Positions 1 through 54,647 of a stretch of DNA of 64,000 nt are shown piece after piece. The stretch's first letter is position 1. Each line of letters starts with the position of its first letter. Under the pieces are notes generated by a model. It was not told the DNA's origin and did no database searches. It saw nothing but the letters and a program-made list of their open reading frames with translations. The stretch is from Wenzhouxiangella sediminis (GTDB lineage Bacteria; Pseudomonadota; Gammaproteobacteria; Xanthomonadales; Wenzhouxiangellaceae): assembly GCF_003410055.1 (NCBI RefSeq), contig NZ_QUZK01000035.1, positions 1 through 64,000 of the forward strand, given 5' to 3'. The position numbers and the translations under genes are program-made.

Positions 1-225
1 TTTCAGGTTTCAGGTTTCAGGTTTCAGGTTTCAGGTTTCAGGTTTCAGGTTTCAGGGTTCAGGGTTCAGGCAAAACTAAGGGGTTCCGGGTTCCGGGTTC
101 CGGCCCTCAAGATAGCATCGGGGCATTTCAGCCGCCCCGCATGCACGGTGCACAGCTTGTCGGCAACGATCCCGAAGCTTCACCAAACGCTCCTGAAACC
201 TGAACCCTGAAACCTGAACCCTTCT
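1..225. repeat. Dispersed inverted heptad-repeat element, copy A
   Basis: Eight perfect tandem copies of TTTCAGG occupy 1-56, followed by two GTTCAGG units to 70. Three GGGTTCC units follow at 81-103, then a unique core, then the inverse array (CCTGAAA/CCTGAAC, four units) at 192-219. The 41 nt at 157-197 are identical to 33487-33527 in copy D. Read from serS, the stop codon is followed by AGAAGG and then the array. The window edge cuts the left arm. I see no gene in this stretch. Confidence 0.9.
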
Positions 226-1683
<1,458 letters not shown>

Positions 1684-9677: not shown

Positions 9678-9700
9678 GCCGTACAGTTTACCGGACCGCG

Positions 9701-10008
9701 TCAGGTTTCAGGTTTCAGGTTTCAGGTTTCAGGCGGCGGCCGCTCTTGCAGGTGGGCGGCTTCGCCGCGATGGGTTGGGGGCTGGGTGTTCCGGGTTCCG
9801 GGTTCCGGGTTCCGGGTTCCGGGTTCCGGGTTCCGGGTTCCGGGTTCTGGGTTCTGGAGGACAGCGCTCAGGTGTCAGCGTTGGCGGCGAGGGCGACTCG
9901 ATATGAACTGAAGCAGTCGGCGGGCACGGCGCGAGGGTTTTCGGCAAGTCACTCGGGGCCCCGCCCAATGCGCCTGAAACCTGAAACCTGAACCCTGAAA
10001 TCCTTCTT
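9701..10008. repeat. Dispersed inverted heptad-repeat element, copy B
   Basis: This fills the whole 331-nt gap between amiC and mutL, which holds no gene. The left arm is four perfect TTTCAGG units at 9706-9733 (plus a partial unit). A GGGTTCC array of about nine units runs at 9784-9857 with its last copies drifting to GGGTTCT. The right arm is CCTGAAA/CCTGAAC at 9973-10000. The amiC stop codon, read on the minus strand, is followed by AAGAAGGA and then the array. A core segment at about 9926-9977 aligns without gaps to the core of copy D. Confidence 0.92.
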
Positions 10009-21500: not shown

Positions 21501-21505
21501 GGTTG

Positions 21506-21537
21506 GTTCGTTGGGTCGTTGGGTCGTTGGGTCGTTG
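21506..21537. repeat. 8-bp tandem repeat
   Basis: The unit TCGTTGGG recurs about 3.5 times between the hslR start and the channel gene's stop. A second short periodic stretch (CTTTGGC-like) lies at 21550-21566. No gene fits here. Confidence 0.85.
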
Positions 21538-21566
21538 GCAGCTTTCTCGCCTTTGGCCTTTGGCCT

Positions 21567-29773: not shown

Positions 29774-29825
29774 TAGGTTTCAGGGGTTCCGGGTTCTTTC
29801 CTGAAACCTGAAACCCTGAAACCTA
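29774..29825. repeat. Dispersed inverted heptad-repeat element, copy C (minimal)
   Basis: The shortest well-formed copy is about 52 nt. The left end CTAGGTTTCAGG, a short GGTTCCGGGTTC middle, and the right end CCTGAAACCTGAAACCCTGA then AACCTA are near mirror images. The right outer TAG, read on the minus strand, is the ffh stop codon. The other end carries the same TAG although no gene reads into it. Confidence 0.9.
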
Positions 29826-31196
29826 AAACGGCATCCCGCCACCCCCACCCGGCATCCCACCGGGCAGGCGCTTCATCATCTTCGCCATGGCGCCCTTGCT
29901 GCCGACCTTCTTCATCATCTTCTGCATCTGCTTGTGCTGCTTGATCAGGCGATTGACGTCCTGGATCTGCAGGCCCGAGCCGGCCGCGATGCGGCGCTTG
30001 CGGGACCCCTTGATGATGTCGGGGTAGCGGCGTTCCTTGGGCGTCATCGAATTGATGATTGCGACCATGCGCCGGGTCTGCTTGTCGTCGACCTGCGACT
30101 TGACTGCATCGGGCAGATTGCCCATGCCGGGCAACTTGTCCATCAGCGCGCCCATGCCCCCGAGCTTGTCCATCTGAAGCAGCTGGTCGCGGAAGTCGTC
30201 CAGGCCGAATCGGCGACTGCCCTTGCCGACCTTGCCGGCCAGTTTCTTGGCCTGCTTCTGGTCGACCTTGCGCTCGACCTCCTCGACCAGGCTGAGCACG
30301 TCGCCCATGCCCAGGATCCGCGAGGCCAGGCGATCCGGATGGAAAGGCTCGATCCCGTCGATCTTCTCGCCGGTGCCGAGAAACTTGATCGGCGCGCCGG
30401 TGATGTGTCGAACCGAAAGCGCCGCACCGCCGCGCGCATCGCCGTCGGTCTTGGTCAGCACCACGCCCGACAGGGGCAATGCCTCGTGGAAGGCCTTCGC
30501 CGTATTGGCGGCGTCCTGGCCGGTCATGGCGTCGACCACGAAGAGCACCTCGGCCGGATCGACCGCGGCGTGGACTCGCCGAATCTCGTCCATCATCGCC
30601 TCGTCCACGGCCAGGCGGCCGGCGGTGTCGAGGATGAGAACGTCGGCGAACTGCTTGCGCGCGTGATCGACCGCGTCGGTGGCAATGCGCACCGGATCGG
30701 CAGTCTCCGCGGATCGGAAGAACCCCGCATCCACCTGTCCCGCCAGGGTCTCGAGCTGGTCGATTGCCGCGGGCCGGTAAACGTCGCAGCTCGACAGCAT
30801 CACCTTCTTCTTGTGCCGCTCCTGGATCAGACGGGCGAGCTTGCCGGCCGTGGTGGTCTTGCCGGCGCCCTGCAGGCCCGCCAGCAGGATAACCACCGGC
30901 GCCTGGCGATCGAGAGCGAGCGGGGCCTGCTCGTCGCCCAGGACGTGCTTGAGCTCCTCGTGAACCACCTTGATGAGGGCCTGGCCGGGCTTGAGGCTCT
31001 TCGTGACCTCCTGCCCCACGGCGCGATCGTTGACCCGGGCAATGAACTCCTTGACCACCGGAAGCGCGACGTCGGCCTCCAGCAGGGCGACGCGCACCTC
31101 GCGCAGGGATTCGCGAATGTTGTCTTCGGTCAGCCGGCCGCGGCTGCGCAGCCGCTCCAGGGATCCGGAAAGTCGCTTACTGAGCTGGTCGAACAT
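29823..31196 (-). CDS. ffh: Signal recognition particle protein Ffh
   Basis: Ffh is the GTPase subunit of the bacterial SRP, directing inner-membrane proteins to SecYEG. It is 457 aa. The NG domain has GLQGAGKTTTAGKLA, DTAGRLAVDE and TKTDGDARGGAALS; the methionine-rich M domain begins at about residue 330 and ends in a Gly/Met/Pro tail (PGGMPGGGGGMPF). The stop codon TAG is also the end of repeat copy C. The promoter shares its TATAAT with the divergent ypjD gene. Confidence 0.98.
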   Translation of the reverse strand: MFDQLSKRLSGSLERLRSRGRLTEDNIRESLREVRVALLEADVALPVVKEFIARVNDRAVGQEVTKSLKPGQALIKVVHEELKHVLGDEQAPLALDRQAPVVILLAGLQGAGKTTTAGKLARLIQERHKKKVMLSSCDVYRPAAIDQLETLAGQVDAGFFRSAETADPVRIATDAVDHARKQFADVLILDTAGRLAVDEAMMDEIRRVHAAVDPAEVLFVVDAMTGQDAANTAKAFHEALPLSGVVLTKTDGDARGGAALSVRHITGAPIKFLGTGEKIDGIEPFHPDRLASRILGMGDVLSLVEEVERKVDQKQAKKLAGKVGKGSRRFGLDDFRDQLLQMDKLGGMGALMDKLPGMGNLPDAVKSQVDDKQTRRMVAIINSMTPKERRYPDIIKGSRKRRIAAGSGLQIQDVNRLIKQHKQMQKMMKKVGSKGAMAKMMKRLPGGMPGGGGGMPF

Positions 31197-32101: not shown

Positions 32102-33361
32102 ATGACTGAAGCGCCCCTGTCCGCACTGTTCATCCTGCTGGCGGTCCTGATCGTTCTGTCCGCCTTCTTCTCGAGCTCGGAAACCGGGCTGGTCGCCCTC
32201 AACCGCTACCGCATGCGCCATCAGGCCAACAGCGGGCACCGCGGCGCGCGCCTGGCCCAGCGCCTGCTGGCCAAGCCCGATCGGATGTTCGGAATCATTC
32301 TGCTGGGCAACAACCTGGTCAACATCCTGGCCGCATCCGTCGCCACCGTCATCGCCATCCGGCTGCTCGGCGAGTCCGGCATTCTCGCTTCCACCCTCGC
32401 GCTGACGGCGGTCATTCTGGTGTTCGCCGAGGTCGCCCCCAAGACGCTGGCCGCCCTCAAACCCGAGCGAATCGCCTACCCGGCCAGCTATGTACTGGTG
32501 CCGCTGCTCAAGCTGCTCTACCCGGCCGTCTGGCTGGTCAACCTGCTCGCCGCCGCGCTCCTGCGGCCCTTCGGAGCCCACCGGGCGGGAAGCGCCCAGG
32601 ACTCCATCAGCCGCGAGGAGCTGCGCACCCTGGTCAAGGAGGGAGGCCGGCACATTTCGCTCGACCACCGGCAGATGCTGATCAATATCCTCGATCTCGA
32701 GCACGGTTCGGTCGACGATGTGATGGTGCCGAGGCAGGACATCGTCGGCATCGACCTGGAAGCCGACTGGGAAGAGATCCTGCTCACCCTGGAGACCAGC
32801 ATCTACACCCGGCTGCCGGTCTGGCGCGGCGACCTGGACAACATGATCGGCCTGCTGCACATTCGCTCGGTCCTGCCCGGGCTGACCCAGGGCCTGCTCA
32901 ACCGCGACACGCTGGAAAAAGCCATTCGTTCACCCTACTTCGTCCCCGAGGGCACACCGCTGACCCAGCAACTGCTGGAATTTCAGACGCGCGAGCGACG
33001 GCTCGGCCTGGTCGTCGATGAATATGGCGACATCCAGGGCCTGATTACGCTCGACGACATCCTCGAGGAAATCGTCGGCGAGTTCACCAGCGAACGCCGC
33101 CACCGCCAGCGCATGGTGCGCAAGCTGGAAAACGGCGACTGGATCGTCGATGGTGGCGCCACCGTTCGCATGCTCAACCGGCGATTCGACTGGAACCTGC
33201 CCATCACCGGCGCCAAGACCCTCAACGGACTGATCCTGGAACACCTCGAGTCGCTGCCCGACGGCCGCACCAGCCTGCGCATCGGCCCGCACACTTTCAC
33301 CATCGTCGACATGGTCGACAAGCGGATTCGGAAGGTGCAGGTCAGGCAGGTGAGGGGCTAG
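32102..33361 (+). CDS. yfjD: CNNM/CorC-family (HlyC/CorC) transporter
   Basis: A 419-residue inner-membrane protein. The N-terminal DUF21/CNNM domain has LSAFFSSSETGLVALNRYR and GNNLVNILAAS, with four hydrophobic helices to about residue 160. Two CBS domains (residues of about 195-315; MVPRQDIVGID and VVDEYGDIQGLITLDDILEEIVGE) and a C-terminal CorC_HlyC domain follow. The family is tied to Mg2+/Co2+ efflux or resistance. It begins 7 nt after ypjD. The stop TAG coincides with the first bases of repeat copy D. Confidence 0.94.
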   Translation: MTEAPLSALFILLAVLIVLSAFFSSSETGLVALNRYRMRHQANSGHRGARLAQRLLAKPDRMFGIILLGNNLVNILAASVATVIAIRLLGESGILASTLALTAVILVFAEVAPKTLAALKPERIAYPASYVLVPLLKLLYPAVWLVNLLAAALLRPFGAHRAGSAQDSISREELRTLVKEGGRHISLDHRQMLINILDLEHGSVDDVMVPRQDIVGIDLEADWEEILLTLETSIYTRLPVWRGDLDNMIGLLHIRSVLPGLTQGLLNRDTLEKAIRSPYFVPEGTPLTQQLLEFQTRERRLGLVVDEYGDIQGLITLDDILEEIVGEFTSERRHRQRMVRKLENGDWIVDGGATVRMLNRRFDWNLPITGAKTLNGLILEHLESLPDGRTSLRIGPHTFTIVDMVDKRIRKVQVRQVRG

Positions 33362-33558
33362 GTTTCAGGTTTCAGGTTTCAGGTTGCAGGTTGCAGGTTG
33401 CAGGTTAAAGACCGGGTTCCGGGTTCCGGGTTCCGGGTTCGGGACGGCACCGGGTTTTCCGGCGTGCGGCATGCACGGCGCAAGGATTGTCGGCAACGAT
33501 CCCGAAGCTTCACCAAACGCTCCTGAACCCTGAACCCTGAACACTGAACCCCTTCTTT
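33359..33558. repeat. Dispersed inverted heptad-repeat element, copy D
   Basis: This fills the gap between two convergent genes. The left arm is TTTCAGG three times, then TTGCAGG three times (33363-33404), then GGGTTCC units at about 33412-33442. The core (33467-33521) shares a 41-nt identical segment with copy A. The right arm is CCTGAAC three times and ACTGAAC (33522-33549). Both flanking stop codons touch or nearly touch the arrays: TAG directly at the left, TGA plus AAAGAAGGG at the right. Confidence 0.93.
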
Positions 33559-35562
33559 TCACCCTTCCGTCATCGCCACCAACTGCGCCACCAGCCGGGG
33601 CCAGTCGACCAGCCGCCGGTGGCCGACCACGTCGAGATGCGGCAGGCCCCGCCCCTCCACGATGTAGAAGCCGCCCGATTCGTGCGGGGCGACGCCGTCG
33701 ATGTGGCAGATGTTGCGGTCGAGGCGACAGGCCAGCCCGGCCCGCCGGTAGGGGAATTCTTCGAACATGCGCAGCACGGTCGCGCCCAGCGCCGCCGCGC
33801 CGCCGCCCAGTCGGGAGAGGTTTTCCACCGCGCGCTGGCTGATGCGCCGGCTCGGTACGTCCTCATGCGTATACAGACGGGCATCCATTGCCACCGGGCG
33901 CCAGTCGAGCAGGCGCAGATCGCGCATCCAGCCCGAGACCTCGCCTTCCATATGGCCGAAGTTGAACGCGCCGGTCAGCTCGGCGAGGTCGAGCCGCTCG
34001 ATCTCGACCTGGGCCGCCAGCGCCGGCAGCGAACCGAAGGGCCGCTCGATGACGAGGTCGCCGAGACGAATCCCGCCCGAGAAGGCCCGGATATCGATGC
34101 CGCCGGAGAAGGCAATTCGATCGCCGCTGACCTGCACTCCGGGAAAGCTGCCCGACAGTTGCCCGGAAAACGTAGGGAAGCCGAGCATCTCGGTCAGTGC
34201 CGACAGCTCCAGGGGGGCGATATGCGCATCCAGGGTCAGCGAGCGCTGCGCGGAATCGGCGCCCTGAACAGCCAGGCGCTCGACCACGAAGGCGCCGTCG
34301 AGCAGCGGAAGCCTGAGGGGCTCGATGAGCCCCCACGCCGAGGGCTCGCCCGCCGCCGCGAGGCGGGAGCTGCCGAAAGCGAGGCTGAACAGTTCGAGTG
34401 CATCCCAGGTCAGCTCGGCCCGCAGATCGTCCTTGGAGCGGTCGAAGGAGCCCTCGAGCGAATCGATGGCGGCCCGTCCGGCCGCATCGCGAACGTCGAC
34501 GGCCTCGAAATCCACGCGGAAGGACTGCAGGTCGCCCGAACGCCAGGCAAGGGCGGCCGAGACTTCGCCATCGGTCTCGAGATCGCCGAAACCGCGCGAC
34601 GAAGCCAGCCCGTCGCCCCAGCGCCGCCACGCCCCCGGAAACTCGAGACGGGCGCGCTCGACAATCAGCTCGGCCAGGCGCCAGCCGCCCTCCCCCATTG
34701 CCAGCGTGAAGCCACCGTCGGCCTCGACCAGCCCGCCGTCGTCGAGAGCCAGCGAATCGACCTGGATCCGCCTGCCGTCAGCCACGCTGCCGGACAGCTC
34801 GAGTTCGAGCGGGCGCTCGGGAGACGGCAAGTAAACCGGGCCGGCCAACAGTTCACCGGCACGCTGCGACAGCGCCGCCGAAAAGCCGAGCTCCCCGAGG
34901 TCGCCGAGGTCCTCGACCTCCCCGCGAAGCGACACCGCCAGCCCGGCGCCGGCGACCAGCCCGTCGGGGCGATCGAAAGCGCCGTCGGCCAGCGCGAGGT
35001 CGAACGACAAGCCGCCCGATTCGACTTCGATCTGTCCGTCGAGCCTCCCTTCCAGCACGCTCAGGCCCATCGCCTCCACGAGGGAACCGGGCGGCGAAGT
35101 CAGGTCGAAGCCCTGCAGCATGACGCGGACGCCGGGCAAGGGCGAACCGGACGGGTCGGGCCAGCTGAGCGATCCGGTCAGGGTGTCGCCCTCCAGTGCA
35201 AAGGCAAGATCGGACGCCCCTTCCGGCCGCAGCAGCCGCCCGGCAAGTCGACCGGCACCGTCGGCGCCGAGCCATTCGAACTCCCCCTGATGACACCAGG
35301 GCAGGCCGGCACGCAAACCGCCGACGGCGCAGTCGATGGCGACCGAACCGCGCCAGTCCTGCCACGCCAGTCCGTCGACGCGCAACCGCCATTGCGACGC
35401 CCCATCGGGTTCCGGACCGCCTCCAGGAAGGTAGACGAGGGACGCCGATCGCCAGCTGAGCGGACCGGCGCGCCCGTCACCCGATTCGAGTTCGAGCCGG
35501 CTTTCCGCATCCGCACGCGCGGTGAGCGCCAGCAGCATGACCAGGAACACCAGGGGCGGCAT
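33559..35562 (-). CDS. AsmA/YdbH-like periplasmic protein of unknown function
   Basis: A 667-residue protein with an N-terminal signal peptide (MPPLVFLVMLLALTARADA; the longer frame adds 21 unlikely residues). Most of the sequence is made of short beta strands with alternating polar and hydrophobic residues, as in AsmA/TamB/YdbH proteins that make a lipid groove between membranes. The C-terminus has a compact motif: AGLACRLDRNICHIDGVAPH, then GGFYIVEGRG and VDWPRLVAQLV, with two cysteines. I do not recognise a named family with certainty. It is divergent from the REC-HPt gene with only 35 nt between starts. Confidence 0.75.
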   Translation of the reverse strand: MPPLVFLVMLLALTARADAESRLELESGDGRAGPLSWRSASLVYLPGGGPEPDGASQWRLRVDGLAWQDWRGSVAIDCAVGGLRAGLPWCHQGEFEWLGADGAGRLAGRLLRPEGASDLAFALEGDTLTGSLSWPDPSGSPLPGVRVMLQGFDLTSPPGSLVEAMGLSVLEGRLDGQIEVESGGLSFDLALADGAFDRPDGLVAGAGLAVSLRGEVEDLGDLGELGFSAALSQRAGELLAGPVYLPSPERPLELELSGSVADGRRIQVDSLALDDGGLVEADGGFTLAMGEGGWRLAELIVERARLEFPGAWRRWGDGLASSRGFGDLETDGEVSAALAWRSGDLQSFRVDFEAVDVRDAAGRAAIDSLEGSFDRSKDDLRAELTWDALELFSLAFGSSRLAAAGEPSAWGLIEPLRLPLLDGAFVVERLAVQGADSAQRSLTLDAHIAPLELSALTEMLGFPTFSGQLSGSFPGVQVSGDRIAFSGGIDIRAFSGGIRLGDLVIERPFGSLPALAAQVEIERLDLAELTGAFNFGHMEGEVSGWMRDLRLLDWRPVAMDARLYTHEDVPSRRISQRAVENLSRLGGGAAALGATVLRMFEEFPYRRAGLACRLDRNICHIDGVAPHESGGFYIVEGRGLPHLDVVGHRRLVDWPRLVAQLVAMTEG

Positions 35563-48366: not shown

Positions 48367-48454
48367 GTTTTCAGGTTGAAGGTTTCAGGTTTCAGGAAAG
48401 GGGCCAGTTGCTTCCTTCCTGGAGCCTGAAACCTGAAACCTGAAACCTGGAACC
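48367..48454. repeat. Dispersed inverted heptad-repeat element, copy E
   Basis: The left arm has TTTTCAGG, then TTGAAGG, then two TTTCAGG units; the right arm at 48424-48449 has CCTGAAA three times then CCTGGAA. The middle is only about 27 nt and lacks a GGGTTCC array. It lies between the ALDH stop (48357) and the pyrD ATG (48459), so it forms the pyrD leader. Confidence 0.9.
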
Positions 48455-54563: not shown

Positions 54564-54580
54564 GGTTTCAGGTATCAGGT
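54564..54580. repeat. Heptad-repeat remnant, copy F
   Basis: GGTTTCAGGTATCAGG is a two-unit remnant of the dispersed heptad array, directly before the rpoH terminator. Confidence 0.6.
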
Positions 54581-54611
54581 AAAAAAAACGCCCCGGCAAA
54601 TACCGGGGCGT
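54581..54611 (-). terminator. Rho-independent terminator after rpoH
   Basis: On the minus strand ACGCCCCGG and CCGGGGCGT form a 9-bp stem with a 6-nt loop followed by eight T residues. Confidence 0.93.
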
Positions 54612-54647
54612 CATTCGTTCGGATCAACTCGTCGGCTCGGCCGGAAT

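Follow-up and report, generated by a model that had tools for sequence, protein, structure and literature searches.

Tandem heptanucleotides dispersed through the genome (STRR), with units other than TTTCAGG, occur in Calothrix and other cyanobacteria, and we know of no description of inversion or stop codon anchoring for them. In E. coli, REP and similar hairpins stop exonucleases. Many bacterial genomes show an excess of heptamer arrays that is unexplained. In the parts of the report of Rehm et al. 2015 (PMC4692102) drawn on here, the GGGAATC and GGGGA(C/T)T heptamers of Xanthomonas and Nostoc form ~180 arrays per genome, about 90% of them intergenic, with a variable number of units, 70-75 convergent pairs and 83% retained at the same pair of genes in different species. 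According to the same parts, the arrays lie mostly within 50 nt of stop codons, few are found between divergent ORFs, and the G-rich strand points outward from the adjacent ORF. As of 2015, no function had been settled for the Xanthomonas arrays. TAACTGA heptamer repeats were described by MacGregor 2015 (PMC4679880) in Beggiatoaceae, Cyanobacteria and Bacteroidetes.

The window analyzed here is a stretch of 64,000 nucleotides from Wenzhouxiangella sediminis (contig NZ_QUZK01000035.1, positions 1 to 64,000). A sequence-only reading of it had reported inverted TTTCAGG-type arrays in six gaps. The arrays are present in all six, and their tandem units were also detected by TRF. In the larger clear copies (1-225, 9701-10008, 33359-33558 and 48367-48454), TTTCAGG arrays oppose CCTGAAA or CCTGAAC arrays, and the GGGTTCC array described inside the first three was confirmed. 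The window gave 0 matches to Rfam at the gathering score. The features are as follows.

1..219, no strand assigned: two-arm element at the serS 3' end, (TTTCAGG/GTTCAGG)x10, inner (GGGTTCC)x3, class-A core, (CCTGAAA/C)x4; serS stop 6 nt past the right edge; length a lower bound, as the contig starts at base 1 of the window, within the TTTCAGG array
1543..1565, + strand: CGCAAAGG, a related micro-array belonging to a different family (period 8), within gap 1510-1690
9699..10000, no strand assigned: two-arm element flanked by the start of mutL and the stop of amiC, TTTCAGG x4-5, inner (GGGTTCC)x9, core, CCTGAAA x4; amiC stop 8 nt away
21502..21538, + strand: octamer array (GTTGGGTC)x4.6 in the gap 21501-21566
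29774..29828, no strand assigned: short element at the ffh 3' end, GTTTCAGG, GGGTTCCGGGTTC, (CCTGAAA)x3; the ffh stop TAG overlaps the array edge
33359..33551, no strand assigned: element in the convergent gap between CNNM/CorC (+) and a gene ending at 33559 (-), TTTCAGGx3, TTGCAGGx3, (GGGTTCC)x3-4, class-A core, CCTGAACx4
48367..48454, no strand assigned: core-less two-arm element in the gap between aldehyde dehydrogenase and dihydroorotate dehydrogenase
54564..54580, + strand: remnant GTTTCAGG-TATCAGG, beside an intrinsic terminator-like hairpin

The hairpin beside the two-unit remnant (54580-54612, - strand) is strong and conventional, with T8. The stop codons had been read correctly: ffh and the CNNM/CorC gene (then called yfjD) end as TAG|GTTTCAGG, serS as TGA-AGAAGGGTTCAGG, amiC as TAG-AAGAAGGATTTCAGG and the gene at 33559 as TGA-AAAGAAGGGGTTCAG. 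Pfam supported the names serS, amiC (Amidase_3+AMIN+LysM), ffh and CNNM/CorC, and gave no match for the gene called AsmA-like. The list of gene ends requires two amendments: the copy at 48367 also sits after a stop, that of the aldehyde dehydrogenase, at 11 nt, and the remnant at 54564 is not at a gene end, as it lies in a divergent gap 16 nt upstream of a start.

A full copy runs from the stop codon through 0-14 nt of an A/G-rich degenerate unit (AAGAAGG, AATTAGG or TAGG), (TTTCAGG/GTTCAGG)n, often AAAGAAGGGG and (GGGTTCC)m, and a core, to a mirror image ending in (CCTGAAA)nCCT. Since other edges read AAGG, GAGG and CAGG, the TAGG edge, which gives the TAG stop of ffh and CNNM/CorC, appears to be one variant of a degenerate edge unit. 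At least three unrelated core classes recur, A having TTGCCGACAA, B having GCGGCAAAGCCGC palindromes and C having REP-like TGACGCGAAGCGTCATCCCGG...CCGGGA; several copies with TTTCAGG arms have no core at all.

The exact 14-mer TTTCAGGTTTCAGG matches the 3.5 Mb W. sediminis genome 382 times (177+205) and the reversed control 0 times, so the arrays are not a product of chance. They do not go back to one assembly artefact either, as flanks and interiors vary among copies and separately assembled relatives bear arrays at the same sites. Contigs C11 and C19, like base 1 of the window, start within TTTCAGG arrays, so that the array lengths at these points are minimum values and such elements interrupt draft assemblies. 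Three consecutive units were found in 20/30 members of the genus and in 24/399 genomes sampled from the order, the 4 outside the genus being 2 from the same family and 2 from one further family; the TTTCAGG expansion is therefore lineage-restricted. It is strongest in W. sediminis and G026; the latter and G031 are probably one genome, as the contig numbers and positions of the arrays listed are identical. The nearest ffh (99% protein and 90% DNA identity) is that of Wenzhouxiangella sp. isolate KhS_metabat.34 (L032/G031). The gaps of W. sediminis, G031, G021, G018, G024 and G080 show a conspicuous lag-7 signal, which is faint or missing in those of G002, G017 and G023 and is lacking in W. sediminis coding sequence and in the gaps of the other gammaproteobacteria compared. 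A plasmid BLAST search with a bare TTTCAGG array gave no match, although a simple-repeat query may be masked.

Placement relative to genes was analyzed in 1.13 of the 3.5 Mb, using arrays with no more than two mismatches in 14 nt and gene calls from a simple purpose-written codon-usage caller. Clusters numbered 66 in gaps and 13 at stretch edges vs 5 in genes, and period-7 arrays were 49 intergenic vs 4 genic. For the 66 intergenic clusters, 47/69 stop-facing edges lie <=14 nt from the stop codon, compared with 26.5 +/- 2.7 when each cluster is moved inside its own gap (2000 trials, maximum 35); start-facing edges show no excess by the same sliding (12/63 vs 12.2). The suggested anchoring on stop codons thus withstood comparison with random placement very well, and recurs in the sister species (15/23 vs 6.7 in G031, 11/16 vs 5.4 in G021). 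Among more distant members of the genus it is weaker (6/16 vs 2.9), and G080, from the same family, shows none (0/9); the loci of the relatives were partly picked for holding arrays, which does not affect the within-gap sliding test. We have high confidence that the TTTCAGG arrays and their placement after stops are real. The median distance of a cluster from the stop is 10 nt, and in co-directional gaps the cluster is closer to the stop in 31 cases and to the start in 9. Convergent gaps are over-represented (14/66 vs 54/474, P 0.011), and divergent gaps hold 11/66 clusters. For 51/69 stops and 45/63 starts, the G-rich strand points away from the neighbouring gene. Inverted pairs make up 30/66 clusters, and arrays in a single orientation 36/66.

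One way of explaining such placement is that the elements are selfish and MITE-like, cores with heptad arms being spread by a trans-acting transposase and surviving where they are harmless, just past stops. The TA of TAG and TAA stops would be a natural target for them, because the leading G of the element restores a TAG stop, and these two codons are commoner at element stops (33/69 vs 288/922, P 0.003). The element at ffh has TA|GG...CC|TA ends, and loci that are not linked share core classes (83% over 77 bp, 80% over 103 bp and 83% over 96 bp, for example). However, the ends are inconstant (TGA-AGAAGGG..., TAACAATCAGG...), the same arms are carried by at least three unrelated interiors and by core-less copies, and neither a DDE_3 (IS630-type) nor a Y1 (RAYT) transposase gene, the only two families looked for, is present in the W. 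sediminis genome. The ffh and CNNM/CorC sites of G031 are without the element yet retain TAGGTT, so that both apparent empty sites may be contractions. Spread of this MITE-like kind is therefore unlikely in our judgment. The earlier idea of a mobile element is supported insofar as the recurring cores suggest copying of some interiors; the search for a clean empty site or a candidate mobiliser found neither. A single mobile element was rejected because the interiors are unrelated among classes or missing, an IS630 MITE because of the lack of a DDE_3 match and the retained TAGGTT, and a RAYT/REPIN system because of the lack of Y1_Tnp in the W. sediminis genome.

The strong RNA stem that had been proposed is upheld as a prediction, with a median z of -3.8 for 29 two-arm elements and a median of 81% of the left arm paired with the right; for the 36/66 clusters of single orientation a full stem is impossible. 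Arms within an element are no more alike than arms from different elements (P 0.85), arm lengths are uncorrelated (rho 0.09), and palindromy of the outer 12 nt is not significant (P 0.07). Arm likeness at the random level and uncorrelated lengths give no nucleotide-level sign of selection for pairing, favour independent slippage and speak against hairpin-templated copying; such correction between the arms was rejected on the arm likeness and the outer palindromy.

A role in mRNA end formation had also been suggested, and the inner layout of several copies, with A-tract, GC stem and T-tract (AAAAGAAG-GGGTTC...GAACCCC-TTCTTTT), as well as the enrichment of convergent gaps, would suit bidirectional intrinsic terminators lying inside the arms. 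The test on U-tracts speaks against such terminators: U-tract terminators are not enriched at element ends compared with other ends, either in convergent (4/26 vs 17/152) or in tandem arrangement (2/39 vs 25/353), and the copies read have no T-tract after the outer arms. In the terminator scan (GC stem + U-tract), such terminators are rare overall at the gene ends of the W. sediminis genome. We rejected the canonical intrinsic terminator on these counts and regard bidirectional terminators within the arms as improbable. Position and predicted fold tentatively fit a stem-loop of the exonuclease-stopping kind, at the 3' end or between cistrons.

The anticipated copy-number variation was found between species, the number of units being unlike at 9/12 sites shared with the 90%-identical G031; right arms in shared gaps of W. 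sediminis and G031 have, for example, 4 against 8, 7 against 11 and 4 against 11 units. At loci not chosen for arrays, arrays are present in both W. sediminis and G031 at 9 sites, in W. sediminis only at 2, in the relative only at 0 and in neither at 34 (P 6e-8); the corresponding numbers for G021 are 10, 1, 1 and 24 (P 5e-7). The ffh element, missing in G031, is bigger in G021. The occupants of the sites differ as follows. The amiC gap has TTTCAGG in W. sediminis and G021 and CACGGAA arrays in G031. Gaps C20:120669 and C4:51551 have CACAGATGAA arrays in W. sediminis and TTTCAGG in G031, and gap C20:121663 has CACAGATGAA in W. sediminis and CACGGAA in G031; these three CACAGATGAA replacements lie on G031 contigs selected for TTTCAGG, so that their frequency is inflated and their existence unaffected, and the other cases are free of this bias. 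The element at 33359 is missing in G031, and G017 has TTCGTCGC-type arrays there; gaps C20:34473 and C20:36947 have GGGTAGAGGG-type arrays in G018. At 48367, arrays are found in G031, G021 and G017, and GTGAAAGx2 in G018, and the gap 21501-21566 has GGGTCTGT/GCGTCTGT octads in G021. The species share array sites but not the array family that fills them. We are aware of no published mechanism by which a site could exchange its array for an unrelated one; GGGTTCC nested within TTTCAGG may be an intermediate of such replacement. In G080, heptamer staircases in unbroken phase (CCTGAAA, CCGGAAA, ACTGAAA; GAGCGGT, GAACCCG) were observed at L229:12844-12996 and L227:12318-12601, with unit counts CCTGAAA x8 -> CCGGAAA x7 -> ACTGAAA; they are apparently a record of unit replacement.

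These data also bear on the possibility that the arrays are a neutral by-product of slippage, with the best-slipping heptamers filling the gaps, the stop marking the end of coding constraint, and promoters and ribosome sites excluding arrays. The independence of arm lengths, the in-phase staircase of G080 and the fact that an mRNA role of the arrays is unproved agree with it. On the other hand, the same units in facing orientation are found at scores of unrelated sites, the sites are conserved (P 6e-8, as above), and the ffh array abuts the stop though most of the gap is empty, which makes neutrality a rather unlikely account, if a slightly better one than MITE-like spread. Far less credible is templated synthesis, whereby a telomerase-like or DRT10-like reverse transcriptase would add G-rich heptads at breaks, inward from both ends. 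The G-rich strand usually runs inward in the arms and tandem-repeat-making bacterial reverse transcriptases exist (PMC12632851), but no RVT_1 domain was found in the 99.79% complete W. sediminis genome, in a search that detected its positive controls, and a telomerase-like enzyme was rejected for this reason.

The reading that we favour, and consider quite possible though somewhat short of probable, is that of a lineage-specific family of heptamer arrays which grow by slippage and form mRNA stem-loops with a protective or delimiting role, at long-lived sites where one family is replaced by another. The elements are non-coding intergenic arrays, nearly half of them inverted pairs with sense TTTCAGG after the stop and CCTGAAA before the next gene. 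Their arms would gain and lose units in 7-nt steps by replication slippage, as suggested by arms that are in phase, copy-variable and independently varying; slippage alone cannot place one unit at scores of sites. Paired in RNA, the arms would give a long stem-loop with its foot usually 0-14 nt past the stop codon, which, at the 3' end or between cistrons, may protect or delimit the mRNA, in a genome with few detectable U-tract terminators and in a position comparable to that of REP elements. The gene-end sites are long-lived, while the occupying family is swapped over evolution.

Three further inverted families with similar geometry are present in W. sediminis, CACAGATGAA (period 10), CACGGAAnn (period 9) and ACGCAAAG (period 8).

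C20:120668-121837, C4:51550-51782, C3:58249-58513 and C9 near 52200: intergenic CACAGATGAA arrays of period 10, inverted
C20:43163-43295, C5:21252-21426 and C4:56085-56203: inverted CACGGAAnn arrays, period 9, with gene-end geometry
Window 1543-1565, C3:62341-62510 and C20:4145-4347: inverted ACGCAAAG arrays, period 8, with similar geometry

The ACGCAAAG arrays are often flanked by GAAAATCTT...AAGATTTTC. The CACAGATGAA family is found with both arms on a Thiodictyon plasmid, about 16 nt past a stop. Two cyanobacterial plasmids bear single arms of it, and five genomes from one distant genus of the phylum have the family as well; a search of E. coli with this period-10 family gave no match. Plasmid BLAST with the period-8 and period-9 queries, the latter assembled from two copies, also gave no match. 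A very long GGGTTCC array was observed in Burkholderia stagnalis (NZ_CP156686.1 near 1960091, L282), with at least 40 matching places in the replicon. A bolder and more doubtful proposal is that certain gene ends are 'sockets' which must hold some inverted short-unit array, that unrelated families (7, 8, 9 and 10 nt) are interchangeable and swapped whole between sister species, and that at least one family crosses phyla.

Replacement of families at conserved sites is explained by neither slippage alone, transposition alone nor G-quadruplex formation, and we found no explanation in the literature searched. A copy-rich genome, copy and family differences between sister species and sharp stop anchoring together constitute a natural experiment, which could ask if mRNA ends or half-lives track the presence, length or family of the arrays.

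The sequence-only reading could not say if the family was already described. Its kind is (PMC4692102, PMC4679880), and the literature searched had no instance of this unit in this lineage: a string search with six diagnostic array strings gave a sole match, in a paper on a human gene, and the words intergenic, heptad and transposase are absent from the genome paper of AB-CW3, a cultured strain of the genus (PMC7691419). Like REP/REPIN, the TTTCAGG elements are intergenic, often after genes and hairpin forming, with REP-like cores in class C; unlike REP/REPIN with RAYT, they occur in a genome without Y1 transposase, their arms are tandem heptads and they have no fixed REP head. With the TAACTGA repeats (PMC4679880) they share dispersed intergenic heptamer direct repeats, a patchy distribution and a mechanism that is not known; in the main genome of that study, however, the repeats are just upstream of starts and direct, with one indirect exception, whereas TTTCAGG arrays follow stops and are often inverted. 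Of the features of the intergenic heptamer class of Rehm et al., the arrays have at least two tandem 7-nt copies, an overwhelmingly intergenic location, G-rich polarity and a position near the stop. The quadruplex unit GGGNATC does not describe TTTCAGG, which has only GG and so could not form a three-tier G-quadruplex from the outer arms; the inner GGGTTCC arrays, which are few, could form one. Compared with the parts of PMC4692102 used here, the TTTCAGG family agrees with the GGGAATC heptamers in its rule of location, its polarity, the many convergent pairs and the conservation of sites. Its geometry is the one published there, so the kind is already known, and with fairly high confidence we file the family as a variant of the Xanthomonas GGGAATC heptamer kind. 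It differs, against the same parts, in its nested second family, recurrent cores and tighter anchoring (the median given above), and those parts do not report the replacement of unrelated arrays at orthologous sites seen among W. sediminis relatives. On this comparison, what is new here is the unit, the lineage, the nesting and the tight stop anchoring.
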